Source: an uncultured Olsenella sp. (GTDB lineage: Bacteria; Actinomycetota; Coriobacteriia; Coriobacteriales; Atopobiaceae). Taken from it: DNA of 64,000 bases. The notes below the pieces were generated by a model. That model saw only the letters and a program-made list of their open reading frames with translations, made no database searches and was not told where the DNA came from. A program made the translations under genes and the position numbers. Below are positions 855 to 56,960 of this stretch, one piece after another (the first letter of the stretch is position 1; the number at the start of each line of letters is the position of its first letter). The stretch lies in the NCBI GenBank assembly GCA_900314535.1, contig OMVT01000002.1:62001-126000 (forward strand), written 5' to 3'.

Positions 855-855
855 G

Positions 856-945
856 GCGCTCCCTTCGTTGGCATTACCCACATCAGGTTCAAAGGGTCGG
901 GACCATCTGTCCCCTCTCAGCCGGCCCATGCCAGCTCCCCTCTAT
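856..945 (-). promoter_or_regulatory. TPP riboswitch of thiC
   Basis: Read on the minus strand it has the THI-box hallmarks in order: GGGGAGC, then GGCTGAGAGG, then CCTTTGAACCTGATGTGGG and TAATGCC, then CGAAGGGA. It lies directly before thiC and its last helix strand includes the thiC Shine-Dalgarno, which suggests control of translation. Thiamine pyrophosphate binding would turn thiC off. Confidence 0.95.
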
Positions 946-1012
946 GTCTGCATCTTCAGAAACCTCATCTGCAGCTGCAAGGCGGATTGTAGCACCCATG
1001 CAGCGGATAGCA
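872..1012. repeat. Duplicated TPP-riboswitch leader, copy A (copy B at 7629-7775)
   Basis: The stretch from the 3' half of the aptamer through about 70 bases upstream of it recurs at 7629-7775 with scattered substitutions. Shared words include GGGTCGGGACCATCTGTCCC and GCTGCAAGGCGGATTGTAGC. Copy A is the functional one before thiC. Confidence 0.85.
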
Positions 1013-35616: not shown

Positions 35617-36691
35617 CTCTGCCGTCCCCCTTCGCATCCGAGATGAGGGGCATGACAGAGGAGGGATCGCAGGAGAGCACGAGCTCGGACGGATTGTCGA
35701 GACGTGCCCATTCGTCCTTGCCGAGCTCATAGCGGAGCTCGGCTGTCCCGGGTGTCTGGAGCATGCAGATGACAGAGAACGGCGACTCGATCGTGCGCAC
35801 GACCGTGCACGAAATTGCGTTCGTGCACGCCTCGTCTGCCTCAGCCACCCGAAAACAGTGGGCACGGATGCCGGCATGGGTCGTGTCTGCAGGAGCCGCG
35901 CCTTCGGTCCCGAGCACGACGCCCCAGTCGGTGCAGTCGAGCCTGCCGTCGGGCAGCACCTGCGCCTTGCTGATGTTCTTGCAGCCAGAGATCAGGGCAG
36001 CTGCCAGAGTCTTCGGATGCGCAAAGAACTCGTGGACCGGCGCGCACTCCTCGGTGCGCCCCTTCGCAATCACGCAGATCTCATCGGCCAGGCGATAGAC
36101 CTCGTCGCGGTTGTGGCTCACGAAGATGGCACCACCGGGGAATAACTTCAGCGTATCGGCGAGCTCGAGCTCGAGCTGCCAGCGGAGATACCCATCGAGG
36201 GCGCTGAACGGCTCATCGAGAAGCAGGATCTGTGGCGAGCCTGCAAGGATGCGTGCAAGCGCGCAGCGCTGCTGCTGGCCACCCGAGAGCTGCGCCGGCT
36301 TCAGGGATTCGAGCCCCGAGAGCTGCATGCGCTCTATCTCTCTATGCGCACGCTCGAGGCGCTCCTCGCGGGTCGCTCCTTCAGCTCCTGCAAGCACATT
36401 CTTCTCGACCGTCATGTTCGGGAAGAGCGCGTACTGCTGGAAGAGGTAGCCGACATGGCGCTTCCTGGCCGGCACATCGATGTGCTGCTCCGCGTCGAAG
36501 AGCACCCGCCCGTTCAGGACGATGCGCCCCTGGTCGGGCTTCATGAGGCCAGCGATAGCCCGGAGCGTCAGGCTCTTGCCACAACCCGATGCTCCGAGGA
36601 GGGCGAATGTCTCATGCGACGTGGCAGTCCTGAAGTGCACATCGAGCTGGAAGCTGCCAAGATCTTTCTCTATATCGACTTCGAGAGACAC
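35609..36691 (-). CDS. modC: Molybdate ABC transporter ATPase ModC
   Basis: 360 residues. Walker A LLGASGCGKSLTLRAI, signature LSGGQQQRCALARI, Walker B LLLDEPFSALD, switch FVSHNRDE. A C-terminal ~120-residue region (KTLAAALISGCKN, then GIRAHCFR) is the TOBE/Mop-like regulatory part. Overlaps modB by 22 bases. Confidence 0.94.
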   Translation of the reverse strand: MSLEVDIEKDLGSFQLDVHFRTATSHETFALLGASGCGKSLTLRAIAGLMKPDQGRIVLNGRVLFDAEQHIDVPARKRHVGYLFQQYALFPNMTVEKNVLAGAEGATREERLERAHREIERMQLSGLESLKPAQLSGGQQQRCALARILAGSPQILLLDEPFSALDGYLRWQLELELADTLKLFPGGAIFVSHNRDEVYRLADEICVIAKGRTEECAPVHEFFAHPKTLAAALISGCKNISKAQVLPDGRLDCTDWGVVLGTEGAAPADTTHAGIRAHCFRVAEADEACTNAISCTVVRTIESPFSVICMLQTPGTAELRYELGKDEWARLDNPSELVLSCDPSSVMPLISDAKGDGRDA

Positions 36692-37374
36692 GATGCCCCC
36701 TTCGCTGCACTCTTCTGGCTGCGCGCACGCCCTTCGAACATGTTCATCGCAAGCAGCACGACCGTCGATATCGCGAGGTTGATGAGGACCCAGGTGAGGG
36801 CGCCTGCATCATCGCCGGTACGCCAGAGCTGGTAGACCGTCGTTGCGACCGTTGCAGTCGAGCCCGGCGTATAGCCGGCAACCATCGAGGTTGCGCCATA
36901 CTCGCCCAAGGCACGGGCAAATGCGAGCACCATGCCGGCAATGATGCCCGAACGGCAGGCCGGCATCTTGACACGCCAGAACGTCCAGATGCCGGACTTT
37001 CCGAGCGTCGCTGCTGCATCGGCAAGCGTCTGGTCGAACGATTCGAAGGCACCTCTGGCCGTACGGTACATGAGCGGGAAGCTCACGACGACGCAGGCCA
37101 CGACCGCTCCCTGCCATACCATGGTAAGGCGCACGCCGAAGGTCTCCATGAGCCAGAGGCCCAGGGGACGCTTCGGCCCCAAGACCGTGAGGATCAGGTA
37201 GCCGACAACGGTCGGCGGCAGGACAAGCGGCAGCGTCAGGATCACATCGAGGATGCCCTTCAGCACCCGGGGCGCCCGCTCGACGACGCCGGCGAGCCAG
37301 ATGCCCAGAAAGAACGTCGCCACCGTCGCGACAAGCGCGATGCGCAGCGAATTCCAGAGCGGAAAGAGATCCAC
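36670..37374 (-). CDS. modB: Molybdate ABC transporter permease ModB
   Basis: 234 residues with five or six membrane helices. ModB signature LPLVLPPTVVGYLILTVLG and the ATPase-contact loop ALGEYGATSMVAGYTPG. Lies between modA and modC. Confidence 0.94.
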   Translation of the reverse strand: MDLFPLWNSLRIALVATVATFFLGIWLAGVVERAPRVLKGILDVILTLPLVLPPTVVGYLILTVLGPKRPLGLWLMETFGVRLTMVWQGAVVACVVVSFPLMYRTARGAFESFDQTLADAAATLGKSGIWTFWRVKMPACRSGIIAGMVLAFARALGEYGATSMVAGYTPGSTATVATTVYQLWRTGDDAGALTWVLINLAISTVVLLAMNMFEGRARSQKSAAKGASCLSKSI

Positions 37375-37416
37375 GGAAGCACCTCCTCGGATGCAGGGAC
37401 GGAAGCAGGACAGGGA

Positions 37417-38268
37417 CTAGGAAAGCGGCGTGAACCCGACTTCCTCGAAGTCGGCAGAAGCTTCGGAGCCCTTCAGGAACTCGAGGAAGGCCGAAGCCCC
37501 ATCGGCGTTCGGCGCTTCCTTGAGCGCTGCTGCAGGATAGACGACGCGTCCGCACATCTCCTTTGTCGCCTCGTCGACGACGGTGAGGCCAGCAGACGTT
37601 GCATCGGTCTTGTAGATGACGCCGCAGTCGACGGCTCCTTCTGAGACCTGGGTCGTGACCTCCTTCACGTTCGTGCCGTACGTGATGCAGCCGGCATTCG
37701 CAAGCTCGGTCTTATCGAGCCTATACCAGGCAAGGATCTTCTGGGTGTACTGGCCGACCGGCACGTCGGAGTTGCCCATAGCAAGCAGGACATCGTGAGC
37801 CGCGAGACGCTCTGCCAGGTCGTCGAAGCCCGCGATCGACTTCGGGTTGCCTTCCGGCACGGCGAGCGTGACCTTGTTCTCGAGGATATCGAAGCGCGTG
37901 GAATGGTCGATGAAGTCAAGGCCTTCGTCGTTTCCGGACTCTGCCTCGGCGTCGAGCTGGTTCATCTGCTTCTGGCCGGCGGAGATGAAGACATCTGCCT
38001 CGGCGCCATTTTCGATCTGCGTCTTGAGCGTGCCCGAAGAGTCGAAGTTGTAGCTCATCTCATAGCTCTCCTGGGAGGCAAACGAGTCTCCTGCCTTCGT
38101 GAGGGACTCGGTCAGAGATGCTGCCGCAAAGACAATGAGCTTCTGCTTCTCGTCGGATGCAGAGGAAGAGCCTCCGGATGCGCCCACGCTGCTGCAGCCT
38201 GCCAGCATGGCTGCTGTCGCTGCGGCACTGCCCCCGATGAAGGCACGGCGTGCCATCGTGTCCGTCAT
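37417..38268 (-). CDS. modA: Molybdate-binding lipoprotein ModA
   Basis: 283 residues from ATG at 38268 with AAGGGGAAG upstream. Tat-like/lipoprotein leader MARRAFIGGSAAATA and LAGCSS lipobox, Ser-rich linker, then LIVFAAASLTESLTKAG, FDSSGTLKTQIENGAEAD and VDCGVIYKTDATSAG, the ModA oxyanion-binding pattern. Scavenges molybdate for the hydroxylase cofactor. Confidence 0.94.
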   Translation of the reverse strand: MTDTMARRAFIGGSAAATAAMLAGCSSVGASGGSSSASDEKQKLIVFAAASLTESLTKAGDSFASQESYEMSYNFDSSGTLKTQIENGAEADVFISAGQKQMNQLDAEAESGNDEGLDFIDHSTRFDILENKVTLAVPEGNPKSIAGFDDLAERLAAHDVLLAMGNSDVPVGQYTQKILAWYRLDKTELANAGCITYGTNVKEVTTQVSEGAVDCGVIYKTDATSAGLTVVDEATKEMCGRVVYPAAALKEAPNADGASAFLEFLKGSEASADFEEVGFTPLS

Positions 38269-38342
38269 GTTCTTCCCCTTCCTTTGATAGGCACCTGTGT
38301 GTCTCTGTCTTCCTGGCATCTCATGCCAGCCCTGCTCCGAGA

Positions 38343-39386
38343 TCAATGGCTGCCCGCATGGGGCACGACGGGTCTGAGCTCTGCCCGGCAGCGGATCATC
38401 TCCGCTGCAATCGAGACGGCAATCTCTGCCGGCGTGACAGCGAGGATCGCCTCGCCAATCGGCAGATGTATGGCAGCAGCATCTGCTTTCGGGATGCCAC
38501 GCTCCTCGAGTGTCTTCCTGGCAAATGCCGCCTTGCCACGGCTGCCGATGCAGCCGATGTAGGCAGGATGCACCGGTACGGTCTGTTCGAGCACATCGAT
38601 ATCTGCGGCATGCCCATGCGTGAGCACGACGACGAAGTCCTCGGGTGCGACCTCTATGCCTGCGTGAGCAAGGTCCTTGAAGTCGGCGAGGATGACCTGC
38701 TCTGCCTTCGGGAAGCGCTCAGGCACGCAGATGTCCTTCCGGTCATCGACGACGACAGGACGGAAGCCCACCGATGCGAGCACTGGCACGAGCGCTTCGC
38801 CGACATGCCCGCCGCCGAAGACCCAGGCAACAGGATCGGGACCGATAGGCTCCGAGTAGCGCTTTGCCTCCTCGTTCCAATAGCAGACATCGGAGCACTC
38901 CTTCGCCGCTTCAGGCGGGAAGCTCTCCTTCCTGCCGAGATGAAGCACAGGCGTGCCATCCTCCCAAGTCTCGACGAGCCAGCGCGTCTTCTTCTCCCTG
39001 AGCGCCGAGAGGATCTCCTCGAGCAGGGGCAGCTTTTCTGAGTCCCAGACCTCGATGCCCACAAGAGCATCCCCGCCACAGGCCATCTGTGTCTTGGCAT
39101 GGGTGTACCACTCGAGCTCGGAAGGCAGCACGTCCTTGCTCTCGGCCTCTTTCAGAAGCTCGGAGGAGCGCTCGAGCGCCATCTGCTCGATATGGCCGCC
39201 ACCAATCGTGCCGGCAAAGGAGCCATCTTCGAACCTTGCCATGCACGCTCCGGCATGCCGAGGCATGGACCCTCTCGTCGCCAGGACAGAGGAGAGGGCG
39301 AGGCGCTCTCCAGCCTCGAGATGGCTCTTGAGCTCTGCGACAAACGCCTCATCGCGCAGGGTCTCATGCGAATCCGTCAGTGCCAT
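38343..39386 (-). CDS. xdhC: XdhC/CoxI-family cofactor insertion protein
   Basis: 347 residues. The N-terminal XdhC domain has SSVLATRGSMPRHAGACMA and GTIGGGHIE; the C-terminal Rossmann part has VAWVFGGGHVGEALVPVLAS and YIGCIGSRGKAAFARK. XdhC binds the molybdenum cofactor and hands it, after sulfuration, to the hydroxylase. Placement in a selD-yqeB operon suggests a selenated cofactor. Overlaps selD by 10 bases. Confidence 0.93.
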   Translation of the reverse strand: MALTDSHETLRDEAFVAELKSHLEAGERLALSSVLATRGSMPRHAGACMARFEDGSFAGTIGGGHIEQMALERSSELLKEAESKDVLPSELEWYTHAKTQMACGGDALVGIEVWDSEKLPLLEEILSALREKKTRWLVETWEDGTPVLHLGRKESFPPEAAKECSDVCYWNEEAKRYSEPIGPDPVAWVFGGGHVGEALVPVLASVGFRPVVVDDRKDICVPERFPKAEQVILADFKDLAHAGIEVAPEDFVVVLTHGHAADIDVLEQTVPVHPAYIGCIGSRGKAAFARKTLEERGIPKADAAAIHLPIGEAILAVTPAEIAVSIAAEMIRCRAELRPVVPHAGSH

Positions 39387-40450
39387 GGACGTCCCTTCTC
39401 GAGCGTGATGCGCGGGCCTCCGAGATGGGGACCGATGGTGCCGACAATATCTGCGGCAGGCACGCGCCCATCAGCCCTGAGAGCAGAGACAAGCGCTTCT
39501 GCATCATCTGCAGCGACGGCTATCATGAGGCCGCCTGAAGTCTCGGGCGAGAAGAGCGCATCCTGAAGCGCCACCGGCGTATCGCCTGCCGCGACCTCCT
39601 GCTCTGCGAAGTGGCGGTTCCTATACATGCCGGAGGGCAGTATGCCGAGCTCTGCCCACTCGAGCACATGGGGCAGGAAGGTCACAGCCTCCGGATAGAG
39701 CTGGATGTCCACATCTGCCCCCTGCGCCATCTCGAGGAGATGGCCAAGCATGCCAAAGCCGGTGATATCGGTCACGGCGTGGACTTGATAGCCAACCATC
39801 ACATCGCGGGCATAGCGGTTGAGTGTGAGCATGATGCGCTCGGCACCTTCCACATCCTCATCCGCTGCAAGGCCGCCCTTCGCTGCGGTCGTGGCGATGC
39901 CGATGCCGGAAGGCTTCGTGTAGACGAGAACGTCCCCCGGCCGGGCGCCAGCGTTGGTGTACATCTTCCGAGGATCGACGAATCCTGTGACCGCAAGGCC
40001 GTACTTCGGCTCTGCATCATAGATCGAGTGTCCGCCTGCGATGAGGGCTCCTGCCTCGTAGACCTTCTCATAGCCGCCGCGCAGGATCTCATGCACGACC
40101 TCTTTCGGCATGTCTTCTGGCACGGCCATGACGTTCAAGGCAAGCTTCGGCTCTCCGCCCATTGCATAGATGTCTGATAGCGCATTCGTGGCCGCGATAG
40201 CTCCGAACGTATAGGGGTCGTCTGCAATCGGCGGGAAGAAGTCGATCGTCGAGACGATTGCAAGATCGTCTGAGACCTTGTAGACCGCTGCATCATCCGA
40301 CTTGTCGAAGCCGACAAGAAGGTTCGGATCCTTCCTCACCTCGAGCCCCGAGAGGAGCTGGGCCAGCTGCCCTGCACCGACCTTGGCGCCGCAGCCAGCG
40401 CACTCGGCCAGCTTCGTGAGCTTGATGTCTTCTTTCTTCCCTGCCATCAC
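39377..40450 (-). CDS. selD: Selenide, water dikinase SelD
   Basis: 357 residues. Makes selenophosphate from selenide and ATP. The catalytic pair is Cys20 and Lys23 in ECAGCGAKVGAGQ (E. coli Cys17/Lys20), so this copy uses Cys rather than selenocysteine. Other blocks are DDAAVYKVSDDLAIVSTID, TNALSDIYAMGG, GHSIYDAEPKYG and FSPETSGGLMIA. No selA, selB or tRNA-Sec lies in the window, and the neighbours are the labile-selenium cofactor genes. Confidence 0.96.
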   Translation of the reverse strand: MMAGKKEDIKLTKLAECAGCGAKVGAGQLAQLLSGLEVRKDPNLLVGFDKSDDAAVYKVSDDLAIVSTIDFFPPIADDPYTFGAIAATNALSDIYAMGGEPKLALNVMAVPEDMPKEVVHEILRGGYEKVYEAGALIAGGHSIYDAEPKYGLAVTGFVDPRKMYTNAGARPGDVLVYTKPSGIGIATTAAKGGLAADEDVEGAERIMLTLNRYARDVMVGYQVHAVTDITGFGMLGHLLEMAQGADVDIQLYPEAVTFLPHVLEWAELGILPSGMYRNRHFAEQEVAAGDTPVALQDALFSPETSGGLMIAVAADDAEALVSALRADGRVPAADIVGTIGPHLGGPRITLEKGRPWH

Positions 40451-41247
40451 ATCCTCTTTCCGAACGTGCCAGAAAGCCCGCAGATTGCCTCGAGCACGCC
40501 ACCGCCGATGGCACGTGCCTTGTCGGAGACCGTAAAGCAGTGCTCGACGATGCCGCGCGGATCGATGTCTCCCGATTTCATGCCTTTGGTGACCGGCACG
40601 CCCTCCTGGAGAAGCCCGCGGATCACGCCGTCGATCGTGCAGGGAAGAGGCACCCCTGCAACCGTAGCTGCAATGTCTCCTGCAGAGACCACATCGCCGA
40701 TCTCGAGCACAGGCTCGAAGATTCCATCGGCCGGAGCTCTCAGCACCCGGTCTGCTGCATGGCCCGCAATCATTCCCGGGACACCGGTATTGGGAATCGG
40801 CGATCCTTCGTAGTAGACGCGTCCCAGCTCATGGCCGCGCTTCGTCTCGACGCAGGCATGGCACACGACGGGTGCCGTGAAGCCGGGACCGACGCCGATA
40901 ACGACAGGAGCCATGTCCTTCGTCGTACCGAGGTTCCTCTTTGCAAGGATGGCATCGACGAGCACATCAGGATGGAGAGCCGGAATCGTGGCGCCTTCTG
41001 GATCCACGAGCACGGCAATCGTGCCTGCATGCGCCAGTGCAAGCGCCTCTTCAGGCGAGGAGGCAAGCTTTCCTTCGATATCCTCCACCTGCGTCTCGCC
41101 GAGGCGTATCGCCTCGCTGAAGGCGACCGTACGTCTCACGGCAGTCGGCACGGCGATATCGAGCATGCAGATGGCACATCCTGCCCGATGAAGGCGCACC
41201 GCGATGCCCGATGCCAGATCTCCTGCCCCGCGTATCACGACGAGCAT
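40447..41247 (-). CDS. yqeB: Selenium-dependent molybdenum hydroxylase accessory protein YqeB
   Basis: 266 residues. N-terminal Rossmann motif VIRGAGDLASGIAVRLHRAG and C-terminal repeats with SPIPNTGVPGMIAGHAADRV, LRAPADGIFEPVLEIGDVV and PLPCTIDGVIRGLLQEG, the YqeB family pattern. The gene co-occurs with selD and molybdenum hydroxylases, but its biochemical step is not established. Overlaps selD by four bases. Confidence 0.92.
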   Translation of the reverse strand: MLVVIRGAGDLASGIAVRLHRAGCAICMLDIAVPTAVRRTVAFSEAIRLGETQVEDIEGKLASSPEEALALAHAGTIAVLVDPEGATIPALHPDVLVDAILAKRNLGTTKDMAPVVIGVGPGFTAPVVCHACVETKRGHELGRVYYEGSPIPNTGVPGMIAGHAADRVLRAPADGIFEPVLEIGDVVSAGDIAATVAGVPLPCTIDGVIRGLLQEGVPVTKGMKSGDIDPRGIVEHCFTVSDKARAIGGGVLEAICGLSGTFGKRM

Positions 41248-41256
41248 GTCTTCCTC

Positions 41257-41490
41257 CTATAGCTCGAGCTCATAGATCCCTGCCCAGACCACCTTGCCTG
41301 AGAGCCTCTCCTCGAAGAGCGGACGCTCCTCGGGTGGCATGGACCAGGCAAGGCCACAGTCTGCCTTGATTGCGACAGGTGTCGGTATGAGCCGCCCTTC
41401 GATTCCTTCTGCATGGCAGAGGCTTTCTGCCGAAAGCGCCTCATGCGTCGAGTCGAATGCCACGACAGAGCGCAGCTTCTTCCTCCTCAT
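41257..41490 (-). CDS. DUF3343 family protein (putative Se/S transfer)
   Basis: 77 residues. SVVAFDSTHEALSAESLC, then LIPTPVAIKADCGLAWSMPP are the DUF3343 core, with a conserved CGLA cysteine. The family is almost always next to yqeB/yedF/cysteine-desulfurase genes in selenium cofactor clusters and may carry persulfide or perselenide. Confidence 0.9.
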   Translation of the reverse strand: MRRKKLRSVVAFDSTHEALSAESLCHAEGIEGRLIPTPVAIKADCGLAWSMPPEERPLFEERLSGKVVWAGIYELEL

Positions 41491-42668
41491 GCTTCCTCCG
41501 CAAGCTCCCGGAGCGCAGAAAGAGCTGCATCGATCTCATCTGGCGCCGTTTGCCAGCCGAACGAGAAGCGGACAGCGCCCGTTGCCTCCGTGCCGAGTGC
41601 CCGATGCATGCGCGGCGCACAGTGGCCGCCTGCACGCGTCGCAATCCCATAGTCCTCGTCGAGTGCCGCAGCAAGCCCAGAGGAATCCCAGCCAGAGAGA
41701 TTGAGCGCAACGACCGGTGCATGGTCGCGCGAAGGCGTGCTGCCGTCGAGCTCATCGAGGTCTTCCGGGAAGTCCCCATAGAGCACGATGCCGGGAATCT
41801 CCCGCACGCCTGCCACGAAGCGGCGGACCAGTGCCAGGTCATGGCAATGGATCTCATCGACGCCGATCGAGCGCACATAGGAGACCGCTGCTGCCAAGCC
41901 TGCTATGCCGCAGCCATTGAGCGTGCCTGCCTCGAGATGCTCGGGGTAGCTCTCAGGCATCCCCTCCTCGAAGGAGAGGACGCCGGTGCCGCCCGAAAGC
42001 AGGGGATCGAGCTCGACACCAGGTGCCACATAGAGGCCGCCTGTGCCCTGGGGGCCCATCAAGGCCTTGTGCCCCGTGAAGGCGAGGAGGTCGATGCCAA
42101 GCGCCTCTGCATCGATCGGGAAGGAGCCTGCCGTCTGCGAAGCATCGAGGAGGACAAGGGCTCCTGCTGCATGTGCCGCCTCTGCGACACGTGCCACATC
42201 GGCTACATTGCCCGTAAGGTTCGATGCATGGGTCAGCACCACAAGCTGCGGCTTCTGTGCCAGGAGCTCTTCGAGCCTTTCATAGCAGAGCCTTCCCCTT
42301 CGGTCTGCTGGCACGAAGGAGCTCTCGATTCCGCGCCGTTCCTTCAGATAGTGGAGCGGACGCAGGATCGAGTTGTGGTCCCAGTCCGTGGCGACCGCCC
42401 GCTCCCCCTCATGGAGCGCGCCTGCGATTGCCATGTTCAGCGCTACTGTCGCATTTGCCGCAAAGACGATGCGCTCCGGATGGGAGATGCCGAAGAGGCT
42501 GCCAAGCTCCTCGCGGGCTGCAAAGACGCCGCGCGCCGCTGCAAGGTCCCCTGCACCGGCACCGCGTCCCGTGCTTCCGGATGCATCGAGCGCCGCACAC
42601 ATGGCCTCGGCGACGCAGGCGGGATGCCAGGCAGAGGTGGCTGCACAGTTCAGATATATGCCGTGCAT
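41487..42668 (-). CDS. Class V aminotransferase, cysteine desulfurase/selenocysteine lyase-like
   Basis: 393 residues from ATG at 42668. PLP lysine in AFTGHKALMGPQGTGGL, His in LTHASNLTGNVAD, catalytic Cys loop ATRAGGHCAPRMHRALG. Probably mobilises sulfur or selenium for the labile selenium cofactor. The start codon was set by MHGIYLNCAATS, the usual N-terminus; overlaps DUF3343 by four bases. Confidence 0.92.
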   Translation of the reverse strand: MHGIYLNCAATSAWHPACVAEAMCAALDASGSTGRGAGAGDLAAARGVFAAREELGSLFGISHPERIVFAANATVALNMAIAGALHEGERAVATDWDHNSILRPLHYLKERRGIESSFVPADRRGRLCYERLEELLAQKPQLVVLTHASNLTGNVADVARVAEAAHAAGALVLLDASQTAGSFPIDAEALGIDLLAFTGHKALMGPQGTGGLYVAPGVELDPLLSGGTGVLSFEEGMPESYPEHLEAGTLNGCGIAGLAAAVSYVRSIGVDEIHCHDLALVRRFVAGVREIPGIVLYGDFPEDLDELDGSTPSRDHAPVVALNLSGWDSSGLAAALDEDYGIATRAGGHCAPRMHRALGTEATGAVRFSFGWQTAPDEIDAALSALRELAEEA

Positions 42669-42679
42669 GGCAGGCTCTT

Positions 42680-43300
42680 CTAGAGGACCGTTGCGCCCGG
42701 GCAGCTGCTCACGATCTCGGCGATTGCATAGAGGTTCGTGACCTCGCCGACCGCAAGCTTGTCCTTGATTCCATAGAAGTCGAGGCAGGTCCCGCAGGTC
42801 AAGATCTTGGTGCCGCGGGAGGCAAGCTCCTTGATATCGTCGAGGGACTCGGAGCCTTCGCACGTCAGGTGGGCGCCGCCATTGTAGAAGAGCATCGTGT
42901 CAGGCACCTTCTCCTGATGGGCCAGGGCATAGATGAAGCCCTTCATCAGGATGTGGCCAAGCTCCTCGTTGCCACGTCCCATCGTGTCCGTATCGACCGC
43001 GACGACCGTAGGTGCAGGAGCAGACGCAGACACATCGCAGAAGGCCTGTGCCTCCTTCTCTGCGGCAGCAGAGCCGATTTCGGAATCTGTCCTCGGCACG
43101 AGCTTGATGGCTGTGTCTGCACCCTGCTGGTTGGCATAGAAGTCAAGCTTCTTCGAGTCAGCAAGACGCATGAGGTTGCTGAGCGCAACATTGTCGTTCA
43201 CGAGGATATCGAGCGATTCGCCGTCTTTGAGCTTCGGCAGGGCCTCGAGCGTCAGGACAACAGGCTTGGGGCACTTGAGATTGCGTGCATCGATTTCCAT
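42680..43300 (-). CDS. yedF: Selenium metabolism protein YedF (TusA-DsrE fusion)
   Basis: 206 residues. The N-terminal TusA-like domain has Cys10 in NLKCPKPVVLTLEAL; the C-terminal DsrE-like domain has LFYNGGAHLTCEGSE and KILTCGTCLDFYGIKDKL. Members co-occur with selD and are thought to bind selenium or sulfur as per-selenide. First gene of the minus-strand operon that ends at 32138. Confidence 0.93.
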   Translation of the reverse strand: MEIDARNLKCPKPVVLTLEALPKLKDGESLDILVNDNVALSNLMRLADSKKLDFYANQQGADTAIKLVPRTDSEIGSAAAEKEAQAFCDVSASAPAPTVVAVDTDTMGRGNEELGHILMKGFIYALAHQEKVPDTMLFYNGGAHLTCEGSESLDDIKELASRGTKILTCGTCLDFYGIKDKLAVGEVTNLYAIAEIVSSCPGATVL

Positions 43301-43354
43301 GTCTTCTCCTTGCCGGCTTCTGCCCACAAGCAGGGCGGTGCAGCCACGAAACGA

Positions 43355-43382
43355 AGCGTTCTATCATCTGAAGGATAACGCT
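43355..43382. promoter_or_regulatory. Imperfect palindrome between yedF and yqeC
   Basis: GCGTTCTATC and GATAACGC form an inverted repeat (GCGTT/AACGC, ATC/GAT) around ATCTGAAG, 55 bases before yedF. A possible regulator site for the selenium operon. Confidence 0.35.
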
Positions 43383-43460: not shown

Positions 43461-43475
43461 ATTACTTTTTGTTTG
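43461..43475. promoter_or_regulatory. Purine/selenium-regulon box, copy 1 (yqeC/yedF)
   Basis: ATTACTTTTTGTTTG, 12 of 15 positions equal to CAAACTTTTTGTTTG; lies 8 bases before the yqeC ATG in the divergent yedF-yqeC region. Confidence 0.5.
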
Positions 43476-43483
43476 GATGCCAA

Positions 43484-44185
43484 ATGATTATTACGGATTT
43501 GCTGCGAACGGATGCAAAGCTTGTGTCAGCGGTCGGAAGCGGCGGCAAGTCGACGCTTCTTCATGAGCTTGCGCTTGCCTTTCCGGGACGCACCATCCTC
43601 ACGACCACGACCCACATGATTCCGCCGAGGGATACCCCCTATCTCGAAGGCCCTCATGAGGAGGAGGTCGCAGCAGCGCTTGCGCAGAACCGCTCGGTCT
43701 GCATTGGACAGAGCATGGCAGGATCAGGCGGCAAGATTTCCGCTCCGGCACTTTCCATGGAGACGCTCAGGGAGCTTGCCGATATCGTGCTCGTCGAGGC
43801 CGATGGCTCGAAGCGCCTGCCCTTGAAGGCCCATGCTGCCTGGGAGCCCATCATCCCTGCCTGCACCGACGAGACGATAGAGGTCGTCGGTGCCTCCGGC
43901 TTCGGGCGTCCGATCGAGCAAGCCGCGCACCGTCCCGAAATCTTCTGCCGCCTGACAGGCGCGCACCCAGAAGATGCAGCGACACCTGAGCTTGTGGCCA
44001 AGGCAGTCGCAGCCGAATGCAGGGATGGCATCTGCCGTCCCGATATCCTCGTCGTGAACCAGGCCGAGGGCACAGAGCGCCTGGAGCAGGCGAGAAGATT
44101 CGCTGCAGAGCTCATCTCCTGCGGCATCGCGCTTCCCGTCTATGCCGGAAGCATACGGGCGCACGAGCTTATGCAGCTTGCCTAG
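43484..44185 (+). CDS. yqeC: Putative selenium-dependent hydroxylase accessory protein YqeC
   Basis: 233 residues. P-loop SAVGSGGKSTLLHELALAF (about residues 14-32), TILTTTTHMIPP, and DIVLVEADGSKRLPLKAH, the YqeC pattern of an ATP/GTP-dependent protein. Exact step in selenium cofactor formation unknown. ATG at 43484 lies in an AT-rich region with a box of the regulon; the ribosome site is weak (GGATG). Confidence 0.9.
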   Translation: MIITDLLRTDAKLVSAVGSGGKSTLLHELALAFPGRTILTTTTHMIPPRDTPYLEGPHEEEVAAALAQNRSVCIGQSMAGSGGKISAPALSMETLRELADIVLVEADGSKRLPLKAHAAWEPIIPACTDETIEVVGASGFGRPIEQAAHRPEIFCRLTGAHPEDAATPELVAKAVAAECRDGICRPDILVVNQAEGTERLEQARRFAAELISCGIALPVYAGSIRAHELMQLA

Positions 44186-44702: not shown

Positions 44703-46055
44703 CTAGCGGGCGACATACGTTCCAGGCTTGGGACCCAATGGCTCGCCGTCGCGCACGACAAGCTCGCCTCCCACATAGACGAGATGCGCCCTGCCCGTGG
44801 CCTCGAAGCCTTCATACGGCGTGTAGTCGACGGCCTGGTGCTGCTTCGCCGCAGAGATTGTCCAGCGCACGTTCGGATCCCAGACGCAGATATCGGCGTC
44901 GGACCCCTTCTGGAGCACGCCCTTCCTGGGATACATGCCGAAGACCTTTGCCGGATTCGTGCTCATGAGGCGGCAGAAGTCGGTCGGTCCCAGCGTATCT
45001 GCAAAGCTTGTCATGATCACGGCTGGTCTATGCTCGACACCGGGGGCGCCGTTGGGAATCTTCCGGAAGTCGCCGATGCCGCGGTCCTTCTGTCCATGCA
45101 GGTTGAACGAGCAGTGGTCCGTCGCAATCGTATCGATCTCGCCGTTCTCGAGCGCCTTTCTCAGGACCTGCACATCATGCCGCGTTCGAAGTGGCGGGCT
45201 CATCACGTACTTCGCACCTTCGAAGCCCGGCTCGAGGTAGCGCGTATCGTCGAGCAGGAGGTACTGGGGGCAGGTCTCGACGCTCACGTGCACGCCACGT
45301 GCCTTGGCAGCACGTATGGCTTCTAGTCCCTCTGCTGTCGAGAGATGGACGATATTGATGCGGGCATCGGCAAGCTCAGCGAGATACGTGAGGCGCGAGA
45401 TGGCCTCTGCTTCGCAGGCAGAAGGCCGGCTCAGAGGATGTCCCTCAGGACCTGTGATGCCGGAAGCGAAGACGCGCTTCTGCAGGGCGTCGACAAGCGT
45501 CCCGTTCTCGCAGTGCACACAGAGGATTCCACCAAATGGGCGGATGGCTTCGAGCACCTCGAGCGTCTGAGCATCGTCGAGCCTCAGGTGGTCATAGGCA
45601 AAATACGTCTTGAAGGAGACGATGCCCGCTTCCCTCATGGCGGGGATGTCGCGCTTCGTCTGCTCGTTCCAGTCGGCAATGGCCATATGGAAGGCATAGT
45701 TTGCCGTGCAGGTGCCATCGGCGCGCCTGTGCCACTCCTCGAGCGCTTCCGGCATGGTCATGCCCTTGTCCTGCGTCGCATAGTCGACGATTGTCGTCGT
45801 GCCACCGCAGGCAGCAGCGCGCGTGCCAGTCTCGAAGCTGTCTGCTGTCCAATCCATGCCGGTCCAGCACTGCATGTGCGTATGGGCATCGATGAAGCCG
45901 GGGAAGACATAGGAACCAGAGACATCGACGACCTCGTCGTCGGCTGTCGCCTCGATGTGTCCTCCAACCTGGACGATTGTTCCGTCGTCGAAGGCAAGGT
46001 CGCCTTTCATGAGGCCTCCGGGCGCGACGAGCACGCCGCCTCTCAAGATCTTCAT
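44703..46055 (-). CDS. hyuA: D-hydantoinase/dihydropyrimidinase HyuA
   Basis: 450 residues, metal-dependent amidohydrolase. Metal motifs: PGFIDAHTHMQCWTG (HxH, about residues 57-59), the carbamylated-Lys region IVSFKTYFAYDHLRL, His in ILCVHCENG and NIVHLSTAEGLE, and Asp in DTIATDHCSF. Opens cyclic ureide rings; in purine clusters of this type it acts on a ring-opened purine product, exact substrate not established. Overlaps the next gene upstream by four bases. Confidence 0.94.
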   Translation of the reverse strand: MKILRGGVLVAPGGLMKGDLAFDDGTIVQVGGHIEATADDEVVDVSGSYVFPGFIDAHTHMQCWTGMDWTADSFETGTRAAACGGTTTIVDYATQDKGMTMPEALEEWHRRADGTCTANYAFHMAIADWNEQTKRDIPAMREAGIVSFKTYFAYDHLRLDDAQTLEVLEAIRPFGGILCVHCENGTLVDALQKRVFASGITGPEGHPLSRPSACEAEAISRLTYLAELADARINIVHLSTAEGLEAIRAAKARGVHVSVETCPQYLLLDDTRYLEPGFEGAKYVMSPPLRTRHDVQVLRKALENGEIDTIATDHCSFNLHGQKDRGIGDFRKIPNGAPGVEHRPAVIMTSFADTLGPTDFCRLMSTNPAKVFGMYPRKGVLQKGSDADICVWDPNVRWTISAAKQHQAVDYTPYEGFEATGRAHLVYVGGELVVRDGEPLGPKPGTYVAR

Positions 46056-47002
46056 CTCTCCTCCTTCTGCCCTGCAATCAGGGCTTCGGCACGGTCAAGA
46101 TCTTCTACCGTGTCGATATCGAAGAGCTCCTCCTCGCCTGCTGCCTCGACAAGGACCGTGCGTGCCGCCTCGTCAGGACGTGCCCTGAGAAGGGCGCCAC
46201 CTCCCGCATCTCCCGAAAGCGCTTGAAGTGCCGGGAAGAGCCTCTTCGGGAAGATGGCAGGGCTTCTGCCCTCCCCTTTCCAGGCAAGACGCACAGGAGA
46301 TGCGAGATGCGCAAAGAACGCCTCTGCCATCCGACGCAGGCTCGCCTCGGAGACGAAGGGCTGGTCTCCCGGGCAGAAGAGGATGCCGGCGCATTCTCCA
46401 AGCGCACGCACACCGGCACGGACCGAATCGCTCTGGAGGGGCCCTTCAGGTGCCACGACTTCGGCACCTGCCGCTGCAGCAGCTTCTGCAACCTCATCCG
46501 CTGCCGTCACGACGACGATGCGGAAAAGGTCTTCCGGCACCTGCGCAAGCGTCTTGCCCAGGACCGTGCCATCGCCCAGAGGGGCCAGGAGCTTCTGCCC
46601 GCCGAAGCGGACGCCCCTGCCTGAAGCGAGGATGCAGCAGCCAAGGCGGGGTGCCAGAAGCCCTGCAAAGGCAGCCTGATAGGCCTCTTCCGCCGCTTTC
46701 TTCGAAGCCTCTTCCCAAGCCTTATAGCGCAGGGCAAGGTCGGCGCCTTGCGGTGTAAGCTTCGCTCCTCCGCCGTCGGCACCTCCGGCATTCCTCGTGA
46801 CAAGCGAGACGCCGAGCGCAGTCTCGGATCCTTCGAGGATGCGGAGTGCCTTCGTATAGGACATCTGCATCGCGCAAGCGGCCTGGCGGATGCTTCCAAG
46901 CTCCTGGATATGGACAAGGAGCTCGGCAGGTCCTGGCCCGAAGGCCCGCTCTCCATCTTCTGCTGCAATCCAGAAGCGCGCGTTCGCACCAAGCTCTGCC
47001 AT
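46052..47002 (-). CDS. ModE-type HTH fused to MocA-like molybdenum cofactor cytidylyltransferase
   Basis: 316 residues. N-terminal ModE/LysR-type winged helix (about residues 1-110): LLVHIQELGSIRQAACAMQM, SYTKALRILEGSE, then GGGAKLTPQGADLALRY. The C-terminal NTP-transferase (about 120-305) has CCILASGRGVRFGGQKLL (MocA LAAGxSxRxGxxK site), LFCPGDQPFVSEASL and GEEELFDIDTVEDL. MocA makes molybdopterin cytosine dinucleotide and ModE senses molybdate. The fusion suggests cofactor-type choice coupled to molybdate-responsive DNA binding. Confidence 0.85.
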   Translation of the reverse strand: MAELGANARFWIAAEDGERAFGPGPAELLVHIQELGSIRQAACAMQMSYTKALRILEGSETALGVSLVTRNAGGADGGGAKLTPQGADLALRYKAWEEASKKAAEEAYQAAFAGLLAPRLGCCILASGRGVRFGGQKLLAPLGDGTVLGKTLAQVPEDLFRIVVVTAADEVAEAAAAAGAEVVAPEGPLQSDSVRAGVRALGECAGILFCPGDQPFVSEASLRRMAEAFFAHLASPVRLAWKGEGRSPAIFPKRLFPALQALSGDAGGGALLRARPDEAARTVLVEAAGEEELFDIDTVEDLDRAEALIAGQKEER

Positions 47003-47030: not shown

Positions 47031-47972
47031 CTATGCTTCGACTATCGTACCCGTGCGGCCGGCGATACCGTCACGTGCCTTCTCGAGGAGCGTGATGAGG
47101 GAGCGCCTGCCGGCTCCGGATTCGGCGAACTTCACTGCTGCCTTGACCTTCGGAAGCATGGAGCCCGGTGCGAACTGGCCCTCTGCCATGTACTCGCGTG
47201 CCTTCCCGGGCGTAAGCGCCGAGAGCCACTCCTGGTTCGGCTTGCCGAAGTTCACGGCGACCTTCTCGACCGCCGTCAGGATCACGAGGTCGTCGGCGTC
47301 AAGCTGCTCTGCCATGCACTCTGCGGCGAAGTCCTTGTCGATCACGGCTGCAGCGCCCTTGAGATGGTGGCCTTCCGTTGCAAAGACCGGAATGCCGCCG
47401 CCACCGCAGGCAATGACCACATGGTTCGTATCGACGAGCGCCTTGATCGTGTCGATCTCGACGATGCCACGGGGCTTGGGCGAGGCGACGACACGGCGCC
47501 AGCCGCGTCCTGCATCCTCGACGACATCGTAGCCGCGCTCATCCACGAGCTTCTTCGCTTCCGCCTCTGTCATGAATGCGCCGATGGGCTTTGTGGGATG
47601 TGCGAAGGCGGGGTCATTGGGGTCGACCTCGACCTGCGTGAGCACAGTCGCGACGCCCTTGGAAAGTCCCCGGTCGAGCATCTCCTCGCGCAGGGCATTC
47701 TGGAGGTCGTAGCCGATGTATCCCTGGCTCATTGCGACGCAGACGGAGAGCGGGCACGGAATGTATTTCTCAGGATTCGAGCGCGTGAGCTGGGTCATCG
47801 CCTCCTGGATCATGCCGACCTGCGGTCCGTTGCCGTGCGCGATGATGACCTGGTTGCCTTCCTCGATGAGGTCGACGATAGCGGTAGCCGTCTTCTTCAC
47901 GGCAGCCATCTGCTCCGGCAGGTTCTTGCCGAGAGCATTGCCGCCCAGCGCCACGACGATGCGCTTTCCCAT
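47031..47972 (-). CDS. arcC: Carbamate kinase ArcC (YqeA-like)
   Basis: 313 residues, full length. VVALGGNALGKNLPEQ at the N-terminus, VIIAHGNGPQVGMIQEA, and VIACGGGGIPVF. Converts carbamoyl phosphate plus ADP to ATP, carbamate and then CO2 and ammonia. With YgeW it supplies the substrate-level ATP of anaerobic purine breakdown. A strong hairpin separates it from the ygeW gene. Confidence 0.95.
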   Translation of the reverse strand: MGKRIVVALGGNALGKNLPEQMAAVKKTATAIVDLIEEGNQVIIAHGNGPQVGMIQEAMTQLTRSNPEKYIPCPLSVCVAMSQGYIGYDLQNALREEMLDRGLSKGVATVLTQVEVDPNDPAFAHPTKPIGAFMTEAEAKKLVDERGYDVVEDAGRGWRRVVASPKPRGIVEIDTIKALVDTNHVVIACGGGGIPVFATEGHHLKGAAAVIDKDFAAECMAEQLDADDLVILTAVEKVAVNFGKPNQEWLSALTPGKAREYMAEGQFAPGSMLPKVKAAVKFAESGAGRRSLITLLEKARDGIAGRTGTIVEA

Positions 47973-48064: not shown

Positions 48065-49267
48065 TTATGCCTGGTTCCAGCGCGGCTTGGCTGCTGCCTC
48101 GAGTGCTGCAAGCGTGACCACCGGATCCTTGACCTTCTGCAGGAAGATCATGGCTGCCACAGCGTAGGGCTTGTAGCTTGCCTCCTTGTAGAGTCCGTCG
48201 CGGTGATAGTCGAAGACCTCGTTCTCGACCTCGCCGTGCTCGCAGGAGACGCCGTTGATGTCGGCAGGCAGGGGATGCATGTAGATCGTGTCCATGCCCT
48301 TGGCGGTCGTGGACATGAGCTCCTGCGTGCAGCACCAATCCTTGTGCGTCGCGTTCTGGGCAAGAAGCTCGCGCTCGAGCTTGTCGATGCCCTCAGAGTC
48401 GCCAGCTGCGTAGAGCTTCGTCCTCTTCTCCATGGCAGCATACGGTGCCCAGGACTTCGGGATCACGATGTCGGCGCCCTCGAAGGCCTCCTGCATCGTG
48501 TGGGCCTGCTTGAAGGAGCCGCCGTTCTCCTCGGCATAGACGCCTGCCTGCTTCACAAGCTCGGGCATGAGGTCATAGCCCTCGGGGTGTGCGAGCGTGA
48601 CATCCATGCCGAAGCGGGTGAGGAGCATGATGAGGGACTGGGGGCAGGAGAGGGGCTTGCCGTAGGAGGGGCTGTAGGCCCAGGTCACGGCAACCTTCTT
48701 GTGCTTCAGGTTCTCAAGGCCGCCGAACTCGTTGATGAGGTAGAGCATGTCGGCAGAGGACTGCGTCGGGTGGTCGGAGTCGGACTGCAGGGACACAAGG
48801 GTCGGTCTGTGGTCGAGGATGCCTGCCTTCCAGGACTCGTCGACGGACTCTGCGACCTCCTTCATATAGGCGTCGCCCTCGCCGATGAACTTGTCATCGC
48901 GGATGCCGATGACATCTGCCATGAACGAGATCATCGTTGCGGTCTCGCGCACGGTCTCGCCGTGGGCGATCTGGGACTTCGACTCGTCGAGGTCCTGGAG
49001 CTGGAGGCCGAGAAGGTTCGAGCCGGATGCGAACGAGAAGCGGGTGCGTGTCGAGTTGTCGCGGAAGTTCGAGACGGCGAGGCCGGAGTCGAAGATGCGC
49101 GTCGAGATATTGCGCTCGCGGAGATTGCGGAGGGCGTTGGCAACGGTGTAGAGCGCCTTGAGCTCGTCGGTCGTCTTGTCCCACGTGTGCAGGAAGTCGT
49201 TGTTGTACATGTCCTTGAAATCGAGCTTGCCGAGCTCGTCGAGATACGGCTTGATGGTGTCTGCCAT
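48065..49267 (-). CDS. ygeW: Knotted carbamoyltransferase YgeW
   Basis: 400 residues. Aspartate/ornithine transcarbamylase fold: carbamoyl-phosphate site DNSTRTRFSFASG, DHPTQSSADMLYL, and HPLPADINGVSCEHGEV. YgeW-type enzymes have an unusual insertion and unknown natural substrate; in purine clusters they are thought to phosphorolyse a ureido intermediate to carbamoyl phosphate for ArcC. Also resembles 2,3-diaminopropionate carbamoyltransferase as suggested by the partner YgeX. Confidence 0.94.
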   Translation of the reverse strand: MADTIKPYLDELGKLDFKDMYNNDFLHTWDKTTDELKALYTVANALRNLRERNISTRIFDSGLAVSNFRDNSTRTRFSFASGSNLLGLQLQDLDESKSQIAHGETVRETATMISFMADVIGIRDDKFIGEGDAYMKEVAESVDESWKAGILDHRPTLVSLQSDSDHPTQSSADMLYLINEFGGLENLKHKKVAVTWAYSPSYGKPLSCPQSLIMLLTRFGMDVTLAHPEGYDLMPELVKQAGVYAEENGGSFKQAHTMQEAFEGADIVIPKSWAPYAAMEKRTKLYAAGDSEGIDKLERELLAQNATHKDWCCTQELMSTTAKGMDTIYMHPLPADINGVSCEHGEVENEVFDYHRDGLYKEASYKPYAVAAMIFLQKVKDPVVTLAALEAAAKPRWNQA

Positions 49268-49314: not shown

Positions 49315-50700
49315 CTACTTGATATCGTTGTCCGTAAGGGATGCACGGAACTCGGTTGCATCAGACGCGTCTGCCGTCGTCGGGTCGTAGAGGTTCACGG
49401 CTGCAACATAGAGGGCAGCTGCCGTCGGCAGGTCCTGCTTGTAGGTGACCTCGTTGGGAGCGTGTGCCTGGGACTCTGCACCCGGGCCGAAGCCGACGCA
49501 CGGGATTCCATAGCGGCCCTGGATTGCGACGCAGTTCGTCGAGAACGTCCACTTGTCGACGAGAGGCCTGCCCTCGCGCTTGTCCATGGATTTCTCGCAG
49601 CCGATCCTCTTGTCGCCGAAGAGCGCCTTGTGGGCATCGACGAGCGCCTTCACGTGCGGTGCGGTCTCCTTGTTGATCCACGTCGGGAAGTAGGCTTCGG
49701 TCTCGTAGACCTCGCCGGTCCAGCTTGGCCTGTCATACATGTACATGGAGACCTTCACGTCGTCGCCGTATTTCTTGACTGCCGGCAGATCCTCGATCTC
49801 CTTCAAGCAGGACTGGTAGGTCTCGCCTGCCGTCATGCGGCGGTCGATGGAGATGGCGCAGGAGTCAGCGACAGCGCAGCGAGACGGGCTCGTGTAGAAG
49901 ATCTGGGAGACCGTGCAGGTGCCGCGGCCGAGGAAGCGGGCATCCTCGTAGTGCTCGGGGTTGTACTTCGGGTCGAGCATCTTCACGAGGCCCTTGATGG
50001 AGGTGGACTCGTCAGCGCCATTGTTGTTGAGGGCACGCACATCATTGATGATGTCAGCCATCTTGTAGATGGCGTTGTCGCCGCGCTCAGGAGCCGATCC
50101 ATGGCAGGAGACGCCATGGACGTCGACCCTGATCTCCATGCGGCCGCGGTGTCCGCGGTAGATGCCGCCGTCCGTCGGCTCGGTCGAGATCACGAACTCC
50201 GGCTTGATATGGTCCTTGTTGTAGATGTACTGCCAGCACATGCCGTCGCAGTCCTCTTCCTGGACCGTGCCGACGACCATGATCTTGTAGCCCTCGGGGA
50301 TGAGGTCGAGGTCCTTCATGATCTTGGCAGCATAGGTTGCAGAGCAGACGCCGCCCTCCTGGTCGGAGCCGCCACGGCCACCGATGAGCTGGTCGTCCTC
50401 GAAGCCCTCATAGGGGTCGAAATCCCAGTTGTCGCGGTTGCCGATGCCGACGGTATCGATGTGGCCATCGATTGCGATGATCTTGTCGCCCGTGCCCATG
50501 AAGCCCATGACATTGCCAAGGCCATCGACCTTGACCTCGTCGAAGCCGAGCTTCTCCATCTCGGCCTTGATGCAGGCGACAACCTCGCCCTCCTCGCACG
50601 ACTCGCTCGGGTGGGAGATCATGGCACGCAGGAACGCCGTCATGTCCTTGCTGTAGGCTGCGGCTGCTGCCTTGATCTTGTCGTAGTCCAGCTCCTTCAT
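49315..50700 (-). CDS. ygeY: YgeY-type M20-family hydrolase
   Basis: 461 residues from ATG at 50700 (GGAGG upstream). M20 metal motifs: [35 protein letters not shown], catalytic Glu pair in [11 protein letters not shown], and the C-terminal metal His region [18 protein letters not shown]. Family known as putative selenium metabolism hydrolase; predicted to hydrolyse an amide/ureide in purine degradation. Two regulon boxes and a promoter lie upstream. Confidence 0.94.
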
Positions 50701-50771
50701 CGCTACCTCCAACTCTTGGGGCAGGAGCGCCTCGGCTCCACTGCCATCAGACAGACCTTATTTCTGTCAGC

Positions 50772-51005: not shown

Positions 51006-52238
51006 CTAGCGCTCTGCAGGGTCGTCCTCGCTCGACCAGGCGCCGTTCCACACAACCTCGCGGTAGCGCACCGGGTCGGTGTCGCCCTCGGTCGAGAACA
51101 GGAGCACCTTGGAATCACGGCCAAGGCCAAGCTCGGCCTTGAGGTCGGCGTAGGCAGGGTCGGACATGATGGAAGAGATGACGCCCATGCCGACAGCGCC
51201 GGACTCTCCCGAGGTGACGGCAGGATCGCCCTTGACGGGAGCTGCGAGCATCCTCATGCCCTTGGCAGAGACCCAGTCGGGGCAGCTCGTGAAGGCCGTT
51301 GCATGATTGCGGAGGATATCCCAGCCGATCGTATTCGGCTCGCCGCAGGCAAGGCCTGCCATGATGGTCAGAAGGTCGCCGCCAACGATGCGCGGATCGC
51401 CATCTGCAGCCACAGCACCCTTGTAGAGGCAGGCAGCCGCGGAAGCCTCCATGATCACGAACTTGGGAGGATTGTCCGGGAAGAGGTTCGTGAAGTAGCC
51501 GACCATGGCCGATGCCAGAGAGCCGACGCCTGCCTGGATAAAGACATGGGTCGGACGGTTCACCTCAAGCTCGCGCAGCTGGTCTGCTGCCTCTGCTGCC
51601 ATGGTGCCGTAGCCCTGCATGATCCAGCTCGGAATCTTCTCATAGCCATCCCAGGCCGTATCCTGCACAATCACGCCGTGCTCGGTCTCGGAGGCCTCCT
51701 TCGCAGCAAGGCGGACGCAGTCATCGTAGTTCAGGTCCTCGATCGTGACCTGGGCGCCTTCCTTCGCGATGTTGTCGTAGCGCGTCTTCGTCGTGCCCTT
51801 CGGCATGTGCACGACGGCCTTCTGATGGAGGCGCTTCGCTGCCCAGGCGACGCCGCGGCCATGGTTGCCGTCCGTCGCCGTGAAGAACGTGGCTTGGCCG
51901 AAGTCATGGGCAAGCTGGTCGGACGTCAGGTAGTCGAAGTTCATCTCGGAGACGTCCTTGCCGGTCTCCTCTGCGATGTAGCGGGCCATAGCAAAGGAGC
52001 CGCCGAGCACCTTGAAGGCGTTGAGGCCGAAGCGGTAGGACTCATCCTTGACAAAGAGGCCGCCCAAGCCCAGACGCTCTGCCATGCCGGAAAGGTTGGC
52101 CAGGGGCGTCACAGAATACTGCGGGAAGCTCTGGTGGAAGGCACGGGCCTTGCTCACGTTCTCGAGCGACATGATCTCGAGGTTCTTGTCCTCGCTCTTG
52201 GGCATCCTGTTGGCAACCCACTTGATTTCAGGCTCCAT
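51006..52238 (-). CDS. ygeX: Diaminopropionate ammonia-lyase YgeX
   Basis: 410 residues from ATG at 52238 (GGGAGGA upstream). PLP enzyme of the threonine-dehydratase fold; cofactor Lys in YRFGLNAFKVLGGSFAM, TATDGNHGRGVAW, QAGVGSLASAMVGYF and GESGAVGMG. Cleaves 2,3-diaminopropionate to pyruvate and two ammonia, the exit of anaerobic purine breakdown into central metabolism. Promoter and box lie at 52276-52326. Confidence 0.95.
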   Translation of the reverse strand: MEPEIKWVANRMPKSEDKNLEIMSLENVSKARAFHQSFPQYSVTPLANLSGMAERLGLGGLFVKDESYRFGLNAFKVLGGSFAMARYIAEETGKDVSEMNFDYLTSDQLAHDFGQATFFTATDGNHGRGVAWAAKRLHQKAVVHMPKGTTKTRYDNIAKEGAQVTIEDLNYDDCVRLAAKEASETEHGVIVQDTAWDGYEKIPSWIMQGYGTMAAEAADQLRELEVNRPTHVFIQAGVGSLASAMVGYFTNLFPDNPPKFVIMEASAAACLYKGAVAADGDPRIVGGDLLTIMAGLACGEPNTIGWDILRNHATAFTSCPDWVSAKGMRMLAAPVKGDPAVTSGESGAVGMGVISSIMSDPAYADLKAELGLGRDSKVLLFSTEGDTDPVRYREVVWNGAWSSEDDPAER

Positions 52239-52275
52239 GCTGCATCCTCCCAGACATGACATATTGTTTTGCAAC

Positions 52276-52290
52276 AATACTTTTTGTTTG
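52276..52290. promoter_or_regulatory. Purine/selenium-regulon box, copy 4 (ygeX)
   Basis: AATACTTTTTGTTTG, 13 of 15. Starts 7 bases downstream of the ygeX -10 hexamer. Confidence 0.65.
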
Positions 52291-53370: not shown

Positions 53371-53501
53371 GTCCGACCTCTTTTCTTCCGATTGGCGCCA
53401 CAGCGTGCTTGCCTGGCTTCCCAATTGATGCGGCTGGAATCAGCGGCAGGGATGCCGTGCCTCCCTGCCTTGAGCGGAGCATACCCGTAAAGGATATCGT
53501 T

Positions 53502-53528
53502 CTAACAATAGTTAGTATCGTTTATTAA
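53502..53528 (-). promoter_or_regulatory. -10 element and CTAAC..GTTAG palindrome before the dehydrogenase gene
   Basis: TTAATA on the minus strand (53523-53528, overlapping the xdhD stop) is followed after 7 bases by CTAACTATTGTTAG (53502-53515). The geometry copies that of the ygeX box, with a 14-base variant palindrome. No good -35 was seen. Confidence 0.5.
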
Positions 53529-56929: not shown

Positions 56930-56960
56930 GCTTGCGCCCTCTCCTTCAAAAACAGCCATG

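Follow-up and report, generated by a model that had tools for sequence, protein, structure and literature searches.

ModE is the textbook molybdate sensor. The locus analysed here raises the question of what a ModE-type DNA-binding domain would respond to when the protein that carries it has a cofactor-making enzyme in the place of the molybdate-binding domain. An initial annotation of the stretch of DNA under study (64 kb in total; hereafter, the window) had proposed such a protein, a ModE-like helix-turn-helix (HTH) at the N-terminus followed by a MocA-like nucleotidyltransferase, and the open reading frame lies exactly at the position annotated (P0001; 46052..47002, minus strand, 316 aa, ATG start, one frame).

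Both halves of the annotation held up in profile and structure searches. The N-terminal part is a ModE-type winged HTH domain (residues 16-106, or 21-106 by a narrower delimitation; 46685..46957, minus strand): TIGR00637 (ModE_repress) matched residues 25-106 (E = 2.5e-15, 56.3 bits), the solved ModE chain (PDB 2ijl) aligned with residues 16-106 (E = 8e-11), the E. coli ModE structure (PDB 1b9m) gave E = 0.0018, and Pfam HTH_1 matched with 6e-7, which is over the Pfam cut-off. The remainder is a MocA/YgfJ-like nucleotidyltransferase domain (residues 122-302; 46097..46639, minus strand), matched by NTP_transf_3 (PF12804; residues 122-275, 1.4e-29) and by TIGR03310 (MocA/YgfJ; 2.9e-29, 102.4 bits). 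Pfam gave no match to a Mop/TOBE molybdate-binding domain in P0001, and the NTP_transf_3 domain occupies residues 122-275 instead, as the annotation had stated. P0001 is thus a genuine two-domain ModE-HTH/MocA protein and, having no Mop/TOBE domain, is not a full ModE. The curated NCBI cut-offs are 98.5 bits for TIGR00637 and 186 bits for the TIGR03310 equivalog; P0001 scored under both (56 and 102 bits, respectively), and neither domain would therefore receive an automatic name. Although the protein is not over the MocA equivalog cut-off, it probably works like a MocA. A generic LysR assignment of the HTH was rejected, since the ModE family scored better in spite of the Pfam label HTH_1. Single-sequence structure models were poor (mean pLDDT, 38 and 52); the best Foldseek match of the HTH model, itself of this poor quality, was ModE 2ijl, a weak hit (E = 0.17).

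The fusion gene lies inside the hydroxylase cluster, as had been noted, between arcC/yqeA and hyuA (the genes listed from here to those of ModABC are on the minus strand unless stated otherwise). Its stop codon is overlapped by the gene for a HyuA-type dihydropyrimidinase/hydantoinase (44703..46055; TIGR02033, 8.1e-160), and it begins 28 bases after the gene for carbamate kinase ArcC/YqeA (47031..47972; TIGR00746, 8.1e-113); it is therefore very likely part of that operon. Beyond arcC are the genes for the YgeW carbamoyltransferase (48065..49267; TIGR03316, 2.1e-213), the YgeY hydrolase (49315..50712; NF009555, 3.6e-187), diaminopropionate ammonia-lyase YgeX/DpaL (51006..52277; TIGR03528, 2.3e-188), a selenium-dependent xanthine dehydrogenase of the XdhD type (53525..56380; TIGR03311, 1127 bits, over the cut-off), an SsnA-like amidohydrolase (60078..61421; assigned with Pfam, 67 % identical to the box-linked amidohydrolase of a relative) and, divergent from ssnA, a YheO-like PAS_6/HTH_22 regulator (61787..62440, plus strand). 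On the other side of hyuA are the genes for the selenium cofactor biosynthesis protein YqeC (43469..44185, plus strand; TIGR03172, 9.8e-47), a YedF-like selenium metabolism protein (42680..43327; TIGR03527, 3.3e-57), an SclA/EF2568-type PLP enzyme (41487..42863, of which the predicted start is over-extended; TIGR01977, 4e-108; NF040779, 5.2e-99), YqeB, which serves in the maturation of selenium-dependent molybdenum hydroxylases (40447..41247; TIGR03309, 1.8e-104, over the cut-off), selenophosphate synthetase SelD (39377..40450; TIGR00476, 4.3e-115), an XdhC-family maturation factor (38343..39386; NF045664, 3e-74) and the molybdate transporter ModA, ModB and ModC (35609..38346; TIGR01256, TIGR02141 (over the cut-off) and TIGR02142). 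The accessory set YqeB/YqeC/YgfJ of selenium-dependent molybdenum hydroxylases (SDMH) was described by Haft and Self in 2008 (PMC2276186); YqeB, SelD, a molybdenum hydroxylase and MocA/YqeC are clustered in the window as in such systems, and SelD, YqeB, YqeC, YedF, XdhC and ModABC match the set. The purine genes correspond to the reductive uric acid cluster of E. coli (PMC12507026). The selenium-dependent xanthine dehydrogenase is the presumed client of the cofactor that the fusion would make. Two further genes of the region were observed: a 3-hydroxyacyl-CoA dehydrogenase-like gene between DpaL and the xanthine dehydrogenase (52420-53424), which is unexpected for a purine-degradation operon, and, immediately upstream of the gene for the xanthine dehydrogenase, one for an RnfB-like polyferredoxin (56390-56959), a possible electron donor or acceptor. 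The only riboswitch in the window is a TPP riboswitch (843-951, minus strand; Rfam RF00059, 59.5 bits), no Moco/tungsten riboswitch being present there.

The distribution of the fusion was surveyed in 104 genomes of the family to which the window belongs, a family of anaerobic actinobacteria; judging from the relatives, the genome set resembles Coriobacteriia, perhaps Atopobiaceae. The MocA part was found in 59 genomes, and in 52 of these it belonged to a full-length fusion; the fusions were found at 42-48 % identity, and they occupy the same position in the cluster, with constant gene order, in all mapped neighbourhoods. A chance, frame or assembly artefact was ruled out by the presence of the full-length protein in 52/104 genomes and by the invariant residues in both domains. 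HTH-less orthologues in related genomes are found at the corresponding position, between YgeW/ArcC and HyuA. In the MocA tree, the seven HTH-less relatives need three separate changes, of which two lie within groups of fusions. YqeB was found in 58 of the 104 genomes, all of them MocA-positive; the sole mismatch was a genome in which the fusion is at a contig end and YqeB was not found (G110). P0001 contains the only ModE-type HTH and is the only MocA match in its own genome, and all strong ModE HTHs of the family (E below 1e-11) are in this fusion or at two further loci, in genomes G004 and G062 (see below). Outside the family, neither a sample of the phylum (396 genomes) nor 393 genomes from the class to which a Lachnospiraceae MAG belongs contained a full-length fusion. 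A scan of genome contigs gave one distant relative only. In the sister family (f10), the MocA (at the same cluster place) and a ModE-like HTH are encoded by separate genes; in the single case inspected, the HTH gene was away from molybdenum genes. ModE-like HTH proteins that stand alone, outside molybdenum gene clusters, were seen at L126:9832-10185, where the neighbours include an IMP dehydrogenase homologue and sucrose genes, and in other genomes of the sister family; several relatives in the same order have a shorter wing (DGARGSTLT).

A candidate operator was found upstream of the maturation genes. Eight fusion genomes share, between the divergent yqeC and yedF-yqeB genes, a palindrome of 24 bp with 8+8+8 spacing (CGTTATAT-N8-ATATAACG; perfect box, CGTTATATTTTTGAAAATATAACG), which agrees in half-site and span with the E. 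coli ModE consensus ATCGNTATATA-N6-TATATANCGAT (PMC545781; PMC2700814). Boxes were first read in these eight genomes and were then scored in all YqeB-positive genomes as the number of matches out of 16 consensus positions, a consensus count rather than a calibrated model; a box was called with at least 12/16 matches within 260 bp upstream of a gene. Such a box was present upstream of at least one maturation gene (yqeC, yedF, yqeB or modA) in 49 of the 52 fusion genomes; the other three had best scores of 11, 11 and 9, and the two with 11/16 have the same palindrome. By gene, boxes were found for yqeC in 31/45, yedF in 25/42, yqeB in 29/51 and modA in 6/24, and for the other genes checked in 0 to 1 each (xdh, 0/9); for the most part, the boxes do not stand at the promoter of the operon of the fusion itself. 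The initial annotation had named the mod and xdh promoters for DNA-binding tests: boxes were found at modA in some genomes and not in the xdh upstream regions examined, and the main predicted targets are yqeB, yqeC and yedF. In total, 106/247 upstream regions contained a box, against a mean of 0.5 expected from dinucleotide shuffles. Genome-wide sites with at most two mismatches occurred in 37/52 fusion genomes and in 4/52 others, and a reversed-pattern control in the fusion genomes gave 6 hits against 49 for the box pattern. Positions outside the scored consensus were also conserved among 66 sites (flanking AG, spacer TTT..AAA).

In the window, the best box, imperfect at 13/16 (the next best was 11/16), is at 43357..43380 (no strand assigned; CGTTCTAT-CATCTGAA-GGATAACG) in the divergent yedF/yqeC promoter region, and yqeC and yedF are its probable targets. 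It is one of two sites with at most three mismatches in its own genome and is conserved in relatives; a search for a sigma-70-like promoter next to it found none.

The boxes come and go with the HTH. Neither the seven SDMH relatives whose MocA has no HTH (top scores: 11, 10, 10, 10, 10, 8 and 8) nor the two sister-family genomes have a box of at least 12/16. The comparison of 49/52 fusion genomes with 0/7 HTH-less relatives gave P = 3.5e-7 (Fisher), which overstates the evidence because the genomes are related to each other and not independent; some are also incomplete. Since the HTH-less MocA proteins represent three separate changes on the tree, HTH and box appear to have been lost together repeatedly. 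These observations support the proposal of the initial annotation that the HTH binds DNA, and the fused HTH very probably binds the ModE boxes at the maturation-gene promoters.

Taken as a whole, P0001 is more readily explained as a bifunctional enzyme and regulator than otherwise, and most likely as a ModE of which the molybdate-binding domain has been replaced by a cofactor-making enzyme. In this model, the MocA domain would transfer a nucleotide (most likely CMP, from CTP) onto Mo-molybdopterin (Mo-MPT), and the resulting dinucleotide cofactor would be supplied to the selenium-dependent xanthine dehydrogenase of the same cluster. The HTH, probably as a dimer, would sit on the palindrome upstream of the maturation genes and control yqeC and yedF/yqeB, as well as modA and the YheO-like regulator in some species; we hypothesise, with fair confidence, that it represses rather than activates. 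Because there is no Mop/TOBE domain, the likely signal would be the active-site state of MocA, with Mo-MPT/CTP or molybdopterin cytosine dinucleotide (MCD) bound. That this state gates DNA binding is a hypothesis to which we give an even chance; transcription would then track the cofactor supply. Biotin and NAD biosynthesis offer precedents: BirA and NadR are enzyme-repressors in which an N-terminal HTH is combined with an enzyme, and this enzyme acts on the same cofactor of which they regulate the genes. The fusion resembles them in having the HTH N-terminal to an enzyme of the regulated cofactor pathway and differs in its domains and its cofactor, and its regulation by the state of the enzyme is hypothetical. 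Somewhat more tentatively, it may be regarded as a molybdenum-cofactor 'trigger enzyme', that is, a ModE-type regulator reading Mo-MPT/MCD in a MocA active site instead of molybdate, with the adjacent or overlapping HTH and mocA genes of some Clostridia (described below) as the two-protein form of the switch.

The main rival, which we consider unlikely, accepts that the HTH binds the boxes and regulates the maturation genes and regards the MocA domain as a tethered passenger, control being exerted through the amount of protein or by a molybdate sensor in trans. Mop-less ModE domains are indeed known elsewhere: in Desulfovibrio, they were predicted in 2004 to act on molybdenum genes through predicted boxes, and the mechanism of molybdenum sensing was called unclear (PMC545781). 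Furthermore, four Clostridia (G673, G783, G640 and G856; L238, L239, L240 and L241) encode HTH and MocA as two polypeptides, and a gene for a 110-aa ModE-type HTH directly precedes or overlaps mocA; Mo-hydroxylase or SDMH genes lie in the vicinity, and three of the four regions contain boxes that score 13/16 or more. The order of these adjacent genes is, however, that of the domains in the fusion. A reversed order was found in G004 (L110:9872-10762; also L231), where a degenerate MobA-like nucleotidyltransferase, without the R..G..K loop residues, is followed by a ModE-type HTH in one protein; the next gene is an intact mocA, a second selenium-dependent xanthine dehydrogenase adjoins, and 13/16 boxes are located before mocA and after the dehydrogenase gene. 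A related arrangement is present in G062:C9:22590-23829. Coupling has thus recurred as a fusion, as adjacent genes and in reversed order, which suggests that the link between HTH and MocA itself matters; of the arguments that the two halves are functionally linked, this repetition is the strongest.

A distinctly unlikely alternative concerns the product, which would be a guanine dinucleotide or another compound rather than MCD. The score of P0001 under the TIGR03310 cut-off and the fold common to MobA and MocA favour it. Against it, the domain ranks with MocA (TIGR03310, 102 bits) before PucB (67 bits) and MobA (TIGR02665, 40 bits), in agreement with the initial annotation, and has a first loop of the A-A/S/N-G type, which we take to be MocA-like rather than MobA-like; the gene also co-occurs with YqeB in 58/59 genomes, and a different selenium-dependent hydroxylase has been reported to contain MCD (cited in PMC2276186). 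The nucleotidyltransferase motifs of P0001 are intact (ILASGRGVRFGGQKLL, PGDQP and DIDT). Among 16 aligned fusions, AxGxxxRxG..K, GDxP and DxDT are near-invariant, the P of GDQP being A in 2/16, and A126, G128, R132, K137, G212, D213, Q214, D295, D297 and T298 are invariant among the aligned fusions. With these motifs, and with no other MocA match in the genome, the nucleotidyltransferase of P0001 is very likely active, and the nucleotide that it adds is probably CMP rather than GMP. It is very improbable that a different regulator binds the boxes and that the fused HTH is only a dimerisation module or relic: these genomes have many LysR-type proteins (weak hits), but they have no other strong ModE-type HTH, box and HTH are jointly absent at three places of the tree, and the aligned fusions do not vary at the helix and wing residues of their HTH (S37, M47, Y49, K51, A52, E60, G73, G74, G77, G78 and T83).

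With the bifunctional reading preferred, the relation of the fusion to known proteins is as follows. It belongs to the same winged-helix family as E. coli ModE (TIGR00637; PDB 1b9m/2ijl), its box agrees with that of ModE in half-site and in the span of 24 bp, and molybdate transport genes are among the targets in some species; unlike E. coli ModE, it is without Mop/TOBE, its effector half is a cofactor nucleotidyltransferase, and its main predicted targets are maturation genes of selenium-dependent hydroxylases. With E. coli MocA/YgfJ, which has no DNA-binding domain, it shares the catalytic fold, the motifs and the type of gene cluster, whereas the fusion family is divergent and under the equivalog cut-off. 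The Desulfovibrio domains (PMC545781) are likewise ModE DNA-binding domains without a molybdate-binding domain; however, they stand alone, with the predicted box CGGTCACG-N14-CGTGACCG, whereas in the fusion the HTH is attached to MocA and the box is still of the E. coli type. XdhD, SsnA, HyuA, YgeW, YqeA, YgeY, YgeX, SelD, YqeB, YqeC and MocA are common to the window and to the SDMH system and uric acid cluster (PMC2276186; PMC12507026), but a DNA-binding domain on MocA and a ModE box are not described in the available parts of those papers. The parts are thus known; in the literature searched, mostly outside subscription journals, neither a ModE-MocA fusion nor the combination, the set of operators or the coupled loss is reported, although an earlier mention, for example in domain-architecture databases, is possible. 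The fusion and the operators at maturation genes make molybdenum sensing by Mop-less ModE domains directly testable, and the trigger-enzyme switch, if true, would answer how such domains sense molybdenum status. P0001 is also a candidate regulator of selenium-dependent purine/uric acid degradation, which attracts interest in connection with gut bacteria and gout (PMC12507026).

A second target was seen in some relatives. Boxes are located beside the gene for the YheO-like PAS_6/HTH_22 regulator in five genomes (G113, G008, G056, G002 and G103; L220, L221, L223, L224 and L227), which suggests a regulatory cascade; the ssnA/PAS_6 promoter of the window (between 60078-61421 and 61787-62440) has no good box. 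The regulator gene is divergent from that of the SsnA-like amidohydrolase in two of the five box-linked genomes (G008 and G002). Finally, 20 fusion genomes (e.g. G002 and G088-G095) have no ModB over the cut-off and have kept the fusion and, in most, the boxes; another Mo/W transporter may serve in these genomes.
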